Assembly: GCA_016286345.1 (NCBI GenBank)
Contig: JAEESL010000008.1
Coordinates: forward strand, 1-41,193
Direction of reading: 5' to 3'
Source of the DNA: Dehalococcoidales bacterium
Lineage (GTDB): Bacteria > Chloroflexota > Dehalococcoidia > Dehalococcoidales > UBA1222
DNA: 41,193 nt
A program made the translations under genes and the position numbers. The stretch's first letter is position 1. Each line of letters opens with the position of its first letter. Positions 22,497 through 29,695 of the stretch are shown here, piece by piece. Under the pieces are notes generated by a model. The model had not been told where the DNA came from, did not search any database, and worked only from the letters and a program-made list of their open reading frames with translations.

Positions 22497-23474
22497 ATGA
22501 AGATCTTAGGAATTGAAAGTTCCTGTGATGAGACTGCCGCGTCGGTAGTCGAAAACGGAACGGAAATATTATCGAATGAGGTCGCTTCCCAGATCGACAT
22601 CCATACCAAATACGGAGGAGTCGTTCCTGAAGTTGCGTCCCGCGCACATCTGGAAGCGGTATACCCTGTGATATACGAAGCCGTGCATAAGGCAGGTGTC
22701 ACATGGGATGAAATTTCTGCGGTAACAGTATCATATGGTCCGGGACTGGCCGGATCTCTTCTGGTCGGAGTGAGTGCAGCCAAAGCCGTTGCCTATGCAT
22801 CCGGAAAACCGTTGGTCGGCATCAATCATATGGAAGGACATATATATGCAAACTGGCTCAGCGGTGATATTCCCGAATTTCCGCTCATCTGTCTGACAGT
22901 GTCAGGAGGACATACGGATCTCATTCTTATGACCGGACACGGAAAGTATAAGATGCTAGGAAGTACCAGGGATGATGCGGCGGGAGAAGCTTTTGACAAG
23001 GTCGCAAGACTTCTGGGGCTGGGGTATCCCGGAGGCCCTGTGATTGACAGGGAAGCACAGAAGGGAACTCCGTGCATTTCTCTTCCGCATGCCGTAATGG
23101 ATGATCCTTATTCCTTCAGTTTCAGCGGCATTAAGACACACCTGTACAGGATGTGTGAGAATGAACTTCCTGCAAGTATTCCTGATATCTGTGCATCGTT
23201 CCAGAAGTCGGTAGTTGATACTCTTGTCGAAAAAACAGTTCATGCAGCCAGGGAATATAACGCAAAAACGATAATTCTTTCCGGCGGCGTTGCAGCTAAC
23301 AGCGGTCTGAGGGAGACAATAAAGAAAGAATCTCCTGTGAGAGTATGTATGCCTCCGAGAGGCCTTTGCACAGATAATGCGGCAATGGTTGCAAGTGCAG
23401 GCTATTTCAGATTCATCAATGGTTCAAGATCCGACCTTGATCTTGATATCGTGCCCAACCTAGTTCTCTGCTGA
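22497..23474 (+). CDS. tsaD: tRNA N6-threonylcarbamoyltransferase TsaD
   Basis: [54 protein letters not shown]; start moved from 22380 to ATG 22497. Confidence 0.96.
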
Positions 23475-24368
23475 TGGCTTTTCAAAAAGACCGATCTTTA
23501 CTCCGATCAACGGGTAAAGAAACGCGAATGCAGTTGCGGCAAAATATCTGATGAATTTTATAAGAGCCATTTCCGGCAGGAGCAGATGCGGAATATATAA
23601 TATTGCCCCGCAGCAGAGTCCTCCGACCAGGAACCTCAGTATTTTTTGCTTTGTCGAACCGTTGCATGAGAAGCCCAGACGAGTCTCTTCCACAGTGTAA
23701 AAGATCAGTGCTGCTCCCAGCATAGTTAATGTTTTGGCCAGACTGGTGAATGCGACAGGATCTCCGTTGAAAAACTGAAGGATTATACTGATTGTCAGCC
23801 CGGCAAAGGTTGCCAGTCCTCCAAGTAAATAGAATTGCTTTCTGTATTTCATAACTTCATCGAGGTATTTGTCCAGGAATCTGTAGAAAAGGAAAACAAC
23901 GGAAAGCCCCAGTAACGCCCCGGCTACGACATCGATCAGCCAGTGTACGCAAAGTACCATTCTAGACAGGGGTATGAGAATTATCAGGATGATACAGAGA
24001 ACATACAGCTTTGAATGATGTGCCAGTGCCCCGTAAACACTGCCTGCGTTGGTCGAATGTCCGCTTGGGAATGAATATCCCATTTCAACTTCCATTTCCT
24101 TTGCATTAAGTCCGTCTATGACATTCCAGGGTCTGGGAGCTTTGAAAGAAGCTTTTATTATTCCCGAAATATTTGAAGCGATAAGTACTATTATAGTTCC
24201 TGCAATACCTTTTTTCTTGTCGATACACCAGAATATCAACAGCAGAATGAATGTCGGAAAAAATTCATTTCCGAGAAAGCTTATAACTTTAGCGGTATAG
24301 AAAATAAACGGGTTGTCGTTGATTCCCGAAAAGAAAAGAAGAATATTCCTCTGCAGTTCCATAAACAT
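23460..24368 (-). CDS. PAP2-family phosphatase, membrane
   Basis: [11 protein letters not shown] (motif 1), [15 protein letters not shown] (motif 2), [16 protein letters not shown] (motif 3). Confidence 0.92.
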
Positions 24369-24395: not shown

Positions 24396-25616
24396 TTATT
24401 TCAAATTATTTCCCGATGCTATTCTCCATATTTTCAGCATAGAATCCCTGGTGATGATCCCCGGGAATTTCTCTCCTGTGACAGCATAACGCCTTGCATC
24501 CATCATATGTGAATATCTGTGATTTGTGTCATTTGTGAGGTTTCCGTCACCATCTTTCAGATAATGAAAATTCCGCTGTTCGGTTATTGCATTGAGAGAA
24601 TCCTTTGTCCAGAAAAGGTTGTACTGCCTTACTTTCTGATGACCGAACTCCACAGAATTTCCCTCCTTGCGGCATCCCAGGGCGTTGAAACCAAGATCTC
24701 TCAGTTCATGGATCATGGCCGGACTTGCGGAATCACACCAGATCCTTCTCTTTCCGATATTGAACTCCCGTAATCTTTCCGCTATATCCCGGCAGGTGAG
24801 CCCGGATTCGTAAAGGAGCTCCTTTGAAAACAGATCGCTGCCTTTGATTACACATTCACATACAGCTGTCGGGTCATTGTATCCCCAGTCCAGCCCGAAG
24901 AAGTGTTCTCCGTCCCCGGGAAGATTATCGACCATTCTCAGATCGGGATACACCAGCCCCTCGGTCTTTCCGACCAGTCCCAGTCCATAGACGTTCCACC
25001 AGTTCTTATCGTTTTTCATGGATTCTATATTGCGGATAGTTTCGGGTGACAGGACATTAAGGGCATCTCTGTATGTCGAATGAATATAGCAGTTCTCCTT
25101 GTTTCCGAGCAGTTCGGAATGAGCCCAGAATTCACCTACAGGATTCCAGTCGAGAAAGGTGAAATAGTTGGTACGGATATCAAGCTCTCTGAAAGCTTCC
25201 AGCGGAATGTTGTTGCATTCGTTGATGTAGAGGATGTCTCTCCTGGCACCGCGGAGTTTGGATGAATTGTCTGCTGAGAAGAATTCTATCTTGCAATTGG
25301 GGAAGGAATATATGAAATCCGTCTTGTTCCACATACTGTCATCAAAACGGTCTCCAAGGATGTTTCTGAAGTCCCGGATGCATCCTCTCTTCAGATGAGG
25401 AAGTGTTTCACTGACGACAGATATCAGTTTTTTGTTTTTACACCGGTCTGCATAAAAGATCAGAAACTGAAGGATGGAATATGTTTTTGAAGAAGAAGTC
25501 CCGCCTTCGTTCAGAGCCCGTCTGTAGCCTCCGAAGAAAGCCTTGAAATTCTGCTTGAAAACATTGGTGACTCTATATCTGAATTCACTCATTTTCTTCT
25601 GTTGTTTTGAATTCAT
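24396..25616 (-). CDS. Phage terminase large subunit, PBSX type
   Basis: RRALNEGGTSSSKTYSILQFLI (ATPase), RGARRDILYINECNNIPLEAFREL, nuclease motifs GLDWGYNDPTAV / WCDSASPAMIHEL / HMMDARRYAV. Confidence 0.93.
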   Translation of the reverse strand: MNSKQQKKMSEFRYRVTNVFKQNFKAFFGGYRRALNEGGTSSSKTYSILQFLIFYADRCKNKKLISVVSETLPHLKRGCIRDFRNILGDRFDDSMWNKTDFIYSFPNCKIEFFSADNSSKLRGARRDILYINECNNIPLEAFRELDIRTNYFTFLDWNPVGEFWAHSELLGNKENCYIHSTYRDALNVLSPETIRNIESMKNDKNWWNVYGLGLVGKTEGLVYPDLRMVDNLPGDGEHFFGLDWGYNDPTAVCECVIKGSDLFSKELLYESGLTCRDIAERLREFNIGKRRIWCDSASPAMIHELRDLGFNALGCRKEGNSVEFGHQKVRQYNLFWTKDSLNAITEQRNFHYLKDGDGNLTNDTNHRYSHMMDARRYAVTGEKFPGIITRDSMLKIWRIASGNNLK

Positions 25617-26010
25617 CTATGTCGGGAGAAGAGAGTGCCTGTTCCATAAGAAGCTTCATTTCGGTATCGGATGTTTCTACTACCGTCTTATCAGGAACAA
25701 ATACCTCTCCGGATGAAGCAGGAGAACTGTCTTTTTCTGTCCATCCTGAATTCTTCCCGAGAGTTTTCAGAACATAGATAATAGAAGTCGATTCGCCTTT
25801 TTCTATTTTTTCGAATAAAGCGCACTCGGCATAGTATATGAACTTCTGACGTTCATTTTTCAGCGCGGTTTTTCTTGATTCGCTCTCTTCAATGTATTTT
25901 TTAACTGCAGCGACATTGCAGTTGAGCAGCATGGCAAGACTTTCGATGTTTCCGAGACTTTTGGGAAGAGCTTCGTCATAGTCGCTTTTTCTGAAAGGAT
26001 ACTTTTGCAT
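25585..26010 (-). CDS. Probable phage terminase small subunit
   Basis: Position directly upstream of and overlapping TerL by 32 bp; HTH-like N-terminus LPKSLGNIESLAMLLNCNVAAVKKYIEES. Confidence 0.6.
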   Translation of the reverse strand: MQKYPFRKSDYDEALPKSLGNIESLAMLLNCNVAAVKKYIEESESRKTALKNERQKFIYYAECALFEKIEKGESTSIIYVLKTLGKNSGWTEKDSSPASSGEVFVPDKTVVETSDTEMKLLMEQALSSPDIDEFKTTEENE

Positions 26011-26095
26011 AATGACCTCTCAGAAAATGGTATGTTTCAGATTGCAGAATGCGATAACAGATATTAATCAGCAGTTAAGGTATTCAAAAAAACAG

Positions 26096-26701
26096 CTAGA
26101 CCGGGTCAACCATGACTTTTACCACTTTGCCGATGACTTTGACATCGGTCTTATTTATGTCATAGATCATATTCTGGAATGAAGGATCGGACGAGCAGGG
26201 CTGAAGTATTACTTTGTCCCCGTCCTGATAAAAACGTTTGATCGTAGCTTCGTTTCCGTCGATCTGAACTGCAGCGAAGTCGCCGTTATTGACTGTTTCC
26301 TCACGGTTTATGCATACAACAGTTCCGTCCTTGAGGTTAGTGAGGTTCATACTGTTGCCTTTGATCTTCAAAGTGATGGTATTGGTGGGGCTCATACCTG
26401 AGATGGGAATATAGCCTTCGATATCTTCCTGACACAGATTTGGGAGACCGGCACGGATCGTACCTGAGACCGGCATCCATGTCACAGGCAGAGGTTCAGA
26501 ATATGAATCATTGTCAAAACCCATCAGATAGGAAAAACTGCAATTAAGAACTTTGGCCATTTTCTTGCCGATCTCCAGAGGGATCTTCCGGTCTTCAGTT
26601 TCGTAGAAAGATACTGCCGCGCCGGATTTGAGCCCGACTTCAGCTGCCAGTTTCTTCTGTGTCAATCCTGCCTGTTTTCTTATTTCTTTAAGGTGGTTCA
26701 T
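26096..26701 (-). CDS. XRE-HTH + S24 peptidase phage-type repressor
   Basis: IRKQAGLTQKKLAAEVGLKSGAAVSFYET HTH; AG (IRAGLPN), Ser (KGNSMNLTNLKDG) and Lys (EATIKRF) of LexA/CI-type autoprotease. Confidence 0.92.
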   Translation of the reverse strand: MNHLKEIRKQAGLTQKKLAAEVGLKSGAAVSFYETEDRKIPLEIGKKMAKVLNCSFSYLMGFDNDSYSEPLPVTWMPVSGTIRAGLPNLCQEDIEGYIPISGMSPTNTITLKIKGNSMNLTNLKDGTVVCINREETVNNGDFAAVQIDGNEATIKRFYQDGDKVILQPCSSDPSFQNMIYDINKTDVKVIGKVVKVMVDPV

Positions 26702-26764
26702 ACTGCTGTTTCCGCCTCTCTCATTGTTTATCGCCCGCAACTGAACTGATTATATCATATTTGT

Positions 26765-26779
26765 ATAACAAAATGTTAA
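26765..26779. promoter_or_regulatory. Operator-like palindrome, copy 1
   Basis: ATAACAAAATGTTAA, one outer mismatch from the perfect palindrome TTAACA-AAA-TGTTAA. Confidence 0.6.
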
Positions 26780-26837
26780 ATAATTTGTTAAAGCAACAAA
26801 AATTGTCCTGAGTCACATAGTAAACTGTTTAGTTGAA

Positions 26838-26852
26838 TTAACAAAATGTTAA
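26838..26852. promoter_or_regulatory. Operator-like palindrome, copy 2
   Basis: Perfect TTAACA-AAA-TGTTAA, 31 nt before the rightward start. Confidence 0.65.
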
Positions 26853-26882
26853 GTATAACGAGTGGGAGCAGAGCAGGAGGAT

Positions 26883-27065
26883 ATGAAAATGATGAAAGTC
26901 TGGTCGATCAATAAGTTTAAGGTCTACTGCAGTGAGGATTCATCCTGGTCAGACGGAATGAAATTTATCGGGATAGAGATACCAGACAGCTGCAGTTCCT
27001 GCTTACAGCAATATTACGGAAGCGAGAAAGTGTATTGTTATGACGCGCAGAATTGTGGATGCTGA
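26883..27065 (+). CDS. 60-aa Cys-rich phage-type small protein, unknown
   Basis: SD GCAGGAGG before ATG 26883; six Cys; overlaps the next gene. Confidence 0.6.
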   Translation: MKMMKVWSINKFKVYCSEDSSWSDGMKFIGIEIPDSCSSCLQQYYGSEKVYCYDAQNCGC

Positions 27066-27507
27066 TACTTTTGGAAGAGCTGTCATCATGTTTAACAAGG
27101 GTAAAACCTGGGATGAAGTGGCGGCCGGTCTTCCTCCTTATACCGGGGAAGAGCTGAAAAACTCATATGATGAACTGAGGCATATGGTCCTCAATATGAA
27201 TCTTTATCCGCTGGGGGAAAAGTACAAGGATTATTATGATCAGCACAGGGATACCGGCTGTTATAAATCTCCCAGGTGTCTCGAATGTCCTCTTCCGAAA
27301 TGTATCTTTGAGAATGAAAAAGTAAAAAAACATAAGTGGACTAAGGAAGAAGACCAGTATATCCGCGAGCATTACGGAATGCTGTCATGTAAAGTCATCG
27401 GAAATCATCTCGATATCTCTGAAAGGACAGTCCAGCAGAGGATAACAACTCTGAAACTGTCAAACCTTAAGAAACTTAACTTCAAAGAAGCAAAACAAAC
27501 TTCCTGA
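27040..27507 (+). CDS. Putative DNA-binding regulator: Cys cluster plus C-terminal Myb/SANT-like HTH
   Basis: CYKSPRCLECPLPKC (CX5CX2CX4C) followed by HKWTKEEDQYIREHYGMLSCKVIGNHLDISERTVQQRITTLKL. Confidence 0.65.
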   Translation: MTRRIVDADTFGRAVIMFNKGKTWDEVAAGLPPYTGEELKNSYDELRHMVLNMNLYPLGEKYKDYYDQHRDTGCYKSPRCLECPLPKCIFENEKVKKHKWTKEEDQYIREHYGMLSCKVIGNHLDISERTVQQRITTLKLSNLKKLNFKEAKQTS

Positions 27508-27530
27508 AGCATAAATATTTAAAGATTGAA

Positions 27531-27557
27531 CCCCGGAATTACCAATTCCGGGGTTTT
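27531..27557 (+). terminator. Rho-independent terminator of rightward small operon
   Basis: CCCCGGAATT-ACC-AATTCCGGGG-TTTT. Confidence 0.85.
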
Positions 27558-27661
27558 GTCATATATGGACAGTATTCTGATTACAGGTTCTGTTTCTTAT
27601 TGTTTTTAGGGAACAATTCTGTGTAATATTCAGTAAAATGTCTTCTAAAAGAGAAATAGTA

Positions 27662-28330
27662 ATGAAAAAAGTATTGCTGATAAACGGAAGTCCCAGAAAG
27701 AACTGGAATACACATAAGCTGCTGATGGAAGCGGAACGCGGAGCTCAGGAAATGGGCGCAGAAACTAAGCTTGTGCATTTGTTTGATCTGAATTACTCGG
27801 ATTGCAGAAGCTGCTTTTCCTGCAAGATCAAAGGCAGTAAGACGAATGGCATCTGTGCTCTTCGCGATGATCTTCGCCAGGTTTTGGAATATGCATGGGA
27901 TGCGGATGCCATTATCATCGGATCCCCGATCTACAATGGTAATCTGACATCCCCGGTTCTGGCCTTTAAGAACAGACTGATATTCCCTGTAATATACTAT
28001 GAACTTGATCCAGAGACCAATCTGCCTGTGTCTTTGCTTGCAAAACCCAAGAAGACAGGCCTGATCGTTTCGGGAAATATTACGGCGGATGCATACAAGA
28101 ATGGATACGCTGAAAAGTTTGAACAGGAAGCATTGCAGCTTGGCTGGGGACTTGGGAGCGGAGAGGTCTTGTTCGTGGCAGACACCTATCAGTTCACAGA
28201 TTATGAGAAATATCATGCCAGTATGTTTGATCCGGCTAAAAAGGCGGAACAACGTGAGAAACAGTTCCCGATTGATCTTCAGAATGCCTACGACATGGGA
28301 AAACGCTTTGCAGAAATATCAGAAACTTGA
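27662..28330 (+). CDS. NAD(P)H-dependent FMN reductase / flavodoxin-fold protein
   Basis: KKVLLINGSPRKNWNTHKLLMEA...DCRSCFSCKIKGSKTNGICALRDDL...DAIIIGSPIYNGNLTSPVLAFKNRL. Confidence 0.9.
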   Translation: MKKVLLINGSPRKNWNTHKLLMEAERGAQEMGAETKLVHLFDLNYSDCRSCFSCKIKGSKTNGICALRDDLRQVLEYAWDADAIIIGSPIYNGNLTSPVLAFKNRLIFPVIYYELDPETNLPVSLLAKPKKTGLIVSGNITADAYKNGYAEKFEQEALQLGWGLGSGEVLFVADTYQFTDYEKYHASMFDPAKKAEQREKQFPIDLQNAYDMGKRFAEISET

Positions 28331-29655: not shown

Positions 29656-29695
29656 AATAAACTGATAATGCCCGGCCGGGCATTATCAGTTTATT
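29656..29695. terminator. 40-bp perfect palindrome, probable terminator
   Basis: AATAAACTGATAATGCCCGG|CCGGGCATTATCAGTTTATT, followed by CTTTT. Confidence 0.75.

Follow-up and report, generated by a model that had tools for sequence, protein, structure and literature searches.

Gene transfer agents (GTAs) are believed to descend from prophages that were fixed in the host and had their genes dispersed there, and the early stages of this process are rarely caught. Satellites of the cf-PICI type carry a repressor and a terminase of their own, as does the locus described here. Known GTAs are encoded at multiple loci (PMC9662315, PMC12946183). An element counts as a GTA when it derives from a Caudoviricete, is endogenised, often at several loci, is inherited vertically and co-diversifies with its host, and packages and delivers random host DNA (PMC9662315).

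The window analysed here is a whole contig of 41,193 bp (C80) from a Dehalococcoidales draft genome (1.46 Mb in 115 contigs), a MAG with 91% completeness and 2.46% contamination. Positions 24396-27557 form an island of five genes between host genes for a PAP2 protein (23460-24368, minus strand) on one side and an FMN reductase (27638-28330, plus strand) on the other, and host sequence flanks it on the contig for approximately 24 kb on one side and 14 kb on the other. Genes for a repressor and for the small (TerS) and large (TerL) terminase subunits are read leftward, and two small genes rightward, up to a terminator. The stop codon of TerL is 27 bp from the start of the PAP2 gene, and no portal gene stands behind TerL. 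Among the ORFs of the locus there is no portal, capsid or integrase gene, and no primase or other replication gene. A repeat search of the window found no att repeats around the island, the direct repeats present there being short and imperfect. A promoter scan gave fewer sites than shuffled sequences, and its result was disregarded. Beyond the FMN reductase gene, between a tyrosine-phosphatase-like gene and larC, a perfect 40-bp palindrome (29656-29695), made of two 20-nt arms without spacer, is probably a bidirectional terminator.

TerL (24396..25616, minus strand) matched phrog_2 at 1.1e-37 and Terminase_3C at 6.6e-7, above its cut-off, and has relatives in phages, in agreement with the phage origin proposed by the initial annotation. 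Its reading frame runs over 406 aa without a stop and, as had also been claimed, keeps the motifs of both halves: Walker A (GGTSSSKT at 38) and Walker B (ILYINE at 128) in the ATPase, D243, D295, H370 and D373 in the RNase H-like nuclease. In a profile search, with a profile of TerL and four relatives as query, the nuclease half matched the SPP1-type terminase nuclease 2wbn (E = 1.7e-11). By these features TerL is classed as a full-length phage large terminase of the SPP1-PBSX type (Terminase_3/phrog_2), with predicted ATPase and nuclease functions. TerS (25585..26010, minus strand, 141 aa) overlaps the start of TerL. The profile libraries gave no convincing match for it, and phmmer aligned it, at 6e-12 to 8e-10, with genes that precede TerL on seven IMG/VR contigs. 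One of the contigs closest to the island, L318 (IMG/VR 3300031993_000402), has a TerS 31% identical to it (E=7e-13). Homology and the position directly before TerL identify it as a phage small terminase.

The third leftward gene (26096..26701, minus strand) encodes an XRE/S24 protein of 201 aa, counted from ATG, with matches to Peptidase_S24 (6.6e-23), HTH_3 (6e-13) and phrog_4 (3.7e-34). With its HTH, its S24 domain, an A-G cleavage site (A84-G85) and a Ser/Lys dyad (S117/K155), it is a CI/LexA-like repressor for which self-cleavage of the S24 kind is predicted. Two operator-like dyads, neither assigned to a strand, lie 73 bp apart inside the divergent promoter region: ATAACAAAATGTTAA at 26765..26779, from repeat family D9, and a dyad of the TTAACAAAATGTTAA type at 26838..26852. 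The dyad core AACAAAATGTT occurs four times in the 1.085 Mb of genome read, two of them at the island. The rightward unit starts with a small Cys-rich protein of 67 aa (26862..27065, plus strand), an ORF for which profile and phage-protein searches returned no relative. It is followed by a 155-aa protein (27040..27507, plus strand) that combines a CxxxxxCxxCPxPxC motif with a C-terminal HTH. This protein had no match in the phages collection and is related to phage proteins elsewhere: a 168-aa counterpart lies upstream of TerS in L317 (IMG/VR 3300001598_000404; blastp 2e-4), and one of 84 aa is found in L179 (1.8e-7). A further relative, from an order-wide cluster described below, matches phrog_836, a late transcriptional activator, at 7e-6. 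On these similarities the 155-aa protein is a probable candidate for a late-gene activator. An intrinsic terminator (27529..27555, plus strand) with perfect 12-bp arms and a 3-nt loop closes the unit, and folds at -22.8 kcal/mol (z = -5.3). The five genes, their strands, the two flanking host genes and the strength of the terminator were thus as first annotated.

The closest TerLs found are those of L317 and L318 (60-63% identical), with which the window TerL clusters in a tree of 77 TerLs (support 0.89). In scans of genome_contigs, TerL matches appeared only with an alignment as query; single-sequence scans of IMG/VR with TerS, the repressor and the 155-aa protein returned no relatives. Among 156 genomes of the order, clear TerL relatives (54-55%) exist in only two others, which belong to families other than that of the window, and in both cases TerL is part of a prophage region and is followed immediately by a portal gene. 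In most of the sufficiently long IMG/VR contigs with TerL relatives (L109-L188), a portal homolog likewise stands a few genes downstream. Since the portal follows TerL so closely in most relatives, an orphan TerL is not the habit of its family. Neither the sole other genome of the genus nor the rest of the family gave a TerL match. The initial annotation had suggested looking for the same five-gene order in related genomes; no second genome with the island was found among the order genomes searched. In the nearest genome, of the same genus, DNA is approximately 71-76% identical where aligned, and the island locus falls outside its matches. PAP2 and FMN reductase have only distant relatives in the nearest genomes, and there the two are placed on separate contigs.

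The element had been described as stripped of all structural genes, which is correct for the island locus and incorrect for the genome, as two further contigs, C95 and C100, carry head genes and tail genes, respectively. A Phage_portal search of this genome and nine relatives gave a single match, on C95 (5,971 bp, L196), and none in the other family genomes searched. There, a portal of 537 aa (phrog_2662, 5e-44) opens a head block that continues with a protease/scaffold-like protein of 437 aa and ends with a major capsid protein of 469 aa (phrog_13692, 3.5e-71). The block is bordered by non-phage genes, one with leucine-rich repeats (LRR) and one of the GmrSD_N/DUF262 type. We rejected the idea that the terminator behind the C95 capsid gene points to a newly formed operon: a hairpin is there in all relatives checked, so it was inherited from the phage. 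At 310-366 of C95, some 250-300 bp ahead of the portal gene, the 13-bp direct repeat AACTATTRYAAAT is present three times (at 310, 336 and 354). These repeats, not found upstream of TerS, are possible activator or operator sites.

The tail genes, on C100 (5,594 bp, L297), were found using proteins of the Thermoanaerobacterium phage THSA-485A as queries. Two overlapping frames matching tail chaperones (1-520) precede a tape-measure-like protein of 426 aa and a hub-like protein of 458 aa (phrog_196, 3.8e-5); a small gene behind the hub closes the block, and MerR-like and CinA-like genes, of non-phage type, lie beyond it. The contig begins inside the first chaperone frame and is therefore open on one side. 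The chaperone frames resemble G and T, which phages fuse via programmed frameshifting.

By tblastn with all the phage proteins over the 1.085 Mb read (74% of the genome), no structural gene was found outside the three loci and none in duplicate. Packaging, head and tail blocks are complementary and non-redundant. This fits one phage that has been divided, and is less expected from three independently decayed prophages. The remaining 26% may hold integrase, replication, connector, major tail and lysis genes. The tape-measure profile PF10145 and the capsid profile PF05065 miss the proteins of this phage lineage, so that negatives of the family searches are not read as absence. A 3,021-bp contig (C36, L197) carries a Tn916-type integrase, a small HTH (xis-like) gene and a PemK/MazF-toxin-like gene; it may represent an integration module that the phage has lost, or an unrelated element.

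In L317 and L318 the corresponding genes stand undivided. In L317 the row TerS-TerL (63%)-portal (54%)-MuF-protease-capsid (49%) is contiguous to beyond the capsid, and in L318 the same row extends to tape measure and hub (36%). Their portals are the closest found to that of C95. Unlike these single late regions, the window genome has its blocks apart; the MuF-like gene is missing from the head block, and the C95 portal is short by about 40 aa at its C-terminus. Moreover, the 168-aa counterpart, TerS and TerL share one strand in L317, whereas in the window TerS-TerL stand directly behind the repressor, inverted relative to the 155-aa gene. The C95 capsid is nearer (60%) to those of L315 and L316, which carry a different TerL; the case for a common origin of the blocks is therefore drawn mainly from their complementarity and from L317 and L318.

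On balance, we favour a reading in which the island provided a temperate tailed phage (siphophage) with its lysogeny switch and its DNA packaging, and in which the genome of this phage has been broken up over at least three loci, leaving a rearranged, defective and immobile prophage with its modules intact. Within the limits of a draft assembly, there is good support for seeing the island as one part of a divided temperate siphophage. The S24 repressor, bound to the two operator dyads, would silence the rightward unit. Upon DNA damage, its cleavage at A84-G85 would free the 155-aa protein, the probable late-gene activator, and TerS-TerL (24396-26010) could then package DNA into heads produced by the C95 locus. 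We infer induction, the activator role, any particle assembly and immobility; the element is most likely immobile because no integrase or replication genes are seen at the three loci. Several points weigh against this reading. The case comes from one draft MAG, C95 and C100 could be mis-binned, and the non-phage genes of C95 could be cargo of an island. The block borders visible, where TerL ends, the portal starts, the capsid ends and, on C100, the small gene that follows the hub ends, all coincide with gene ends, which is unlike random decay. The noncoding share of such late regions is only 1.7-2.8%, a rough value in which any forward ORF of at least 45 aa was counted as coding. Such borders mean either that truncated genes were later trimmed off or that there was a preference for intact modules.

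The foremost alternative is a dispersed and functional domesticated phage resembling a GTA, in which the window would supply control and packaging, C95 the head and C100 the tail, all co-regulated and under selection. The complementary, intact blocks cut at gene borders and the regulatory circuit with its own dyads and terminator argue for it, as does the multi-locus coding of known GTAs; the genes are of Caudoviricete derivation, and occupy three separate contigs, subject to MAG quality. In base composition, all three blocks match the host genome, which L317 and L318 do not. Of 93 near-invariant columns, defined by at least 95% invariance among the other sequences, TerL preserves 87 although its nearest relatives are only some 60-63% identical, so that constraint acted on it through most of its history. 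Its sisters keep 89-90 of 92-93, however; conserved positions have thus changed slightly more often in TerL, which also has a long terminal branch. Column conservation is compatible with recent stranding and with continued function alike, and gives no date for the stranding. Against domestication, known GTAs are inherited vertically, whereas TerL gave no match in the other genome of the genus or in the rest of the family, and the portal none in the family genomes searched, in a comparison that includes one strain of the species. The missing MuF-like gene, a capsid terminator that is not new, and the lack of any shared promoter motif in the regions upstream of TerS and of the portal point the same way. 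We therefore regard a domesticated, functional phage as rather unlikely, and its explicit form, a young GTA-like system whose intact, co-regulated loci jointly make DNA-packaging particles under an SOS-type repressor, as unlikely too.

The scatter may also be unreal, one ordinary prophage having been mis-joined or mis-binned. The draft state of the MAG, its many contigs and its contamination, the small size of C95 and C100 and the open side of the latter would allow this. The long host flanks of the island contradict it, as do junctions at gene borders rather than in repeats and a composition that, for every piece, fits the genome; we judge such an artefact improbable.

Phage genes with host genes on either side are also what a prophage at this site would leave had the rest been lost in one deletion, as the initial annotation had envisaged. 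The island has no contiguous late region with a portal after TerL, and no integrase or att sites, as a complete prophage would. A single deletion does not explain the gene order, because L317 keeps the 155-aa counterpart, TerS and TerL on one strand; it also leaves the placement next to the repressor and the separate head and tail blocks of the lineage unaccounted for, and we consider it very improbable. Small size, an own repressor and an own TerS and TerL had likewise suggested a compact satellite packaging itself into helper capsids, a most unlikely reading for a locus with no integrase, primase or replication module and no att repeats, found in no second genome of the order among those searched, and whose own genome holds head and tail genes that complement it and belong to the same phage lineage. 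Nothing was found to support the further proposal of a stand-alone nuclease or defence module, which is unlikely.

In the course of these searches we observed, in relatives from the same order, a different compact phage-like cluster (L067, L069, L071, L072, L074, L076, L088-L090, L093, L094). It comprises a Cys/HTH gene, an SPP1-type portal, a scaffold, an HK97-type capsid of 306 aa, an SU10-like adaptor, a tail protein of about 660 aa and a 70-aa protein, with a Terminase_6C-type TerL nearby in several loci; no integrase or repressor was recognised alongside in the loci read. Its capsid has a match in 84 of the 156 order genomes (52 of 85 genera), nearly always in single copy, and four families share it at 74-77% identity. 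In three families (L072, L076, L085) the cluster has a GatB/YqeY-like plus radical-SAM gene on one side and PheS/PheT on the other, or some of these neighbours. We consider it a strong candidate for a GTA-like system that is old and passed on vertically, and a literature search found no paper on it. In one genus with complete genomes of 1.4-1.5 Mb (G016, G088 and G052; L085-L087) it is decaying at the same chromosomal place: the capsid gene is gone, the portal is truncated or deletion-fused to the tail gene, and L087 has in addition lost its Cys/HTH and portal genes. A member of the family of the window genome (G002) has two loci, on its contigs C3 and C22 (L091, L092), with a more distant relative of this capsid (E ~1e-48), surrounded in L091 by further phage-like genes.

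A phage cut along module borders, with intact parts and host-like composition, is either a candidate for an early GTA stage or a clear instance of module-wise prophage break-up. If the former is true, an uncultured member of the Dehalococcoidales would harbour a dispersed young GTA-like system. In practice, the rest of a genome should be searched before a lone terminase-repressor island is called a satellite.

Compared with RcGTA, BaGTA and BhGTA, the system similarly has phage-derived genes at several host loci and no adjoining integrase. Those GTAs differ in being vertically inherited and in making particles, the island system being known here from its genes. Satellites of the cf-PICI type differ from the island by their integrase and att sites, and the window genome also has tail genes. 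Large terminases of the SPP1/PBSX type share with TerL the nuclease core and its acidic residues (PDB 2wbn nuclease domain); they are distant in sequence, and the window TerL adjoins a repressor rather than a portal. In phage THSA-485A (temperate, 41.9 kb) the order terS-terL (PBSX type)-portal-protease/scaffold-capsid, followed further on by tape measure-hub, is that of the three blocks put end to end, with identities of 27-30% to TerL, portal and capsid and approximately 20% to the hub. Unlike the divided phage, THSA-485A is an intact prophage; it has genes for a recombinase, for replication and for lysis, and a RinA-type regulator before TerS, in place of the Cys-HTH protein.
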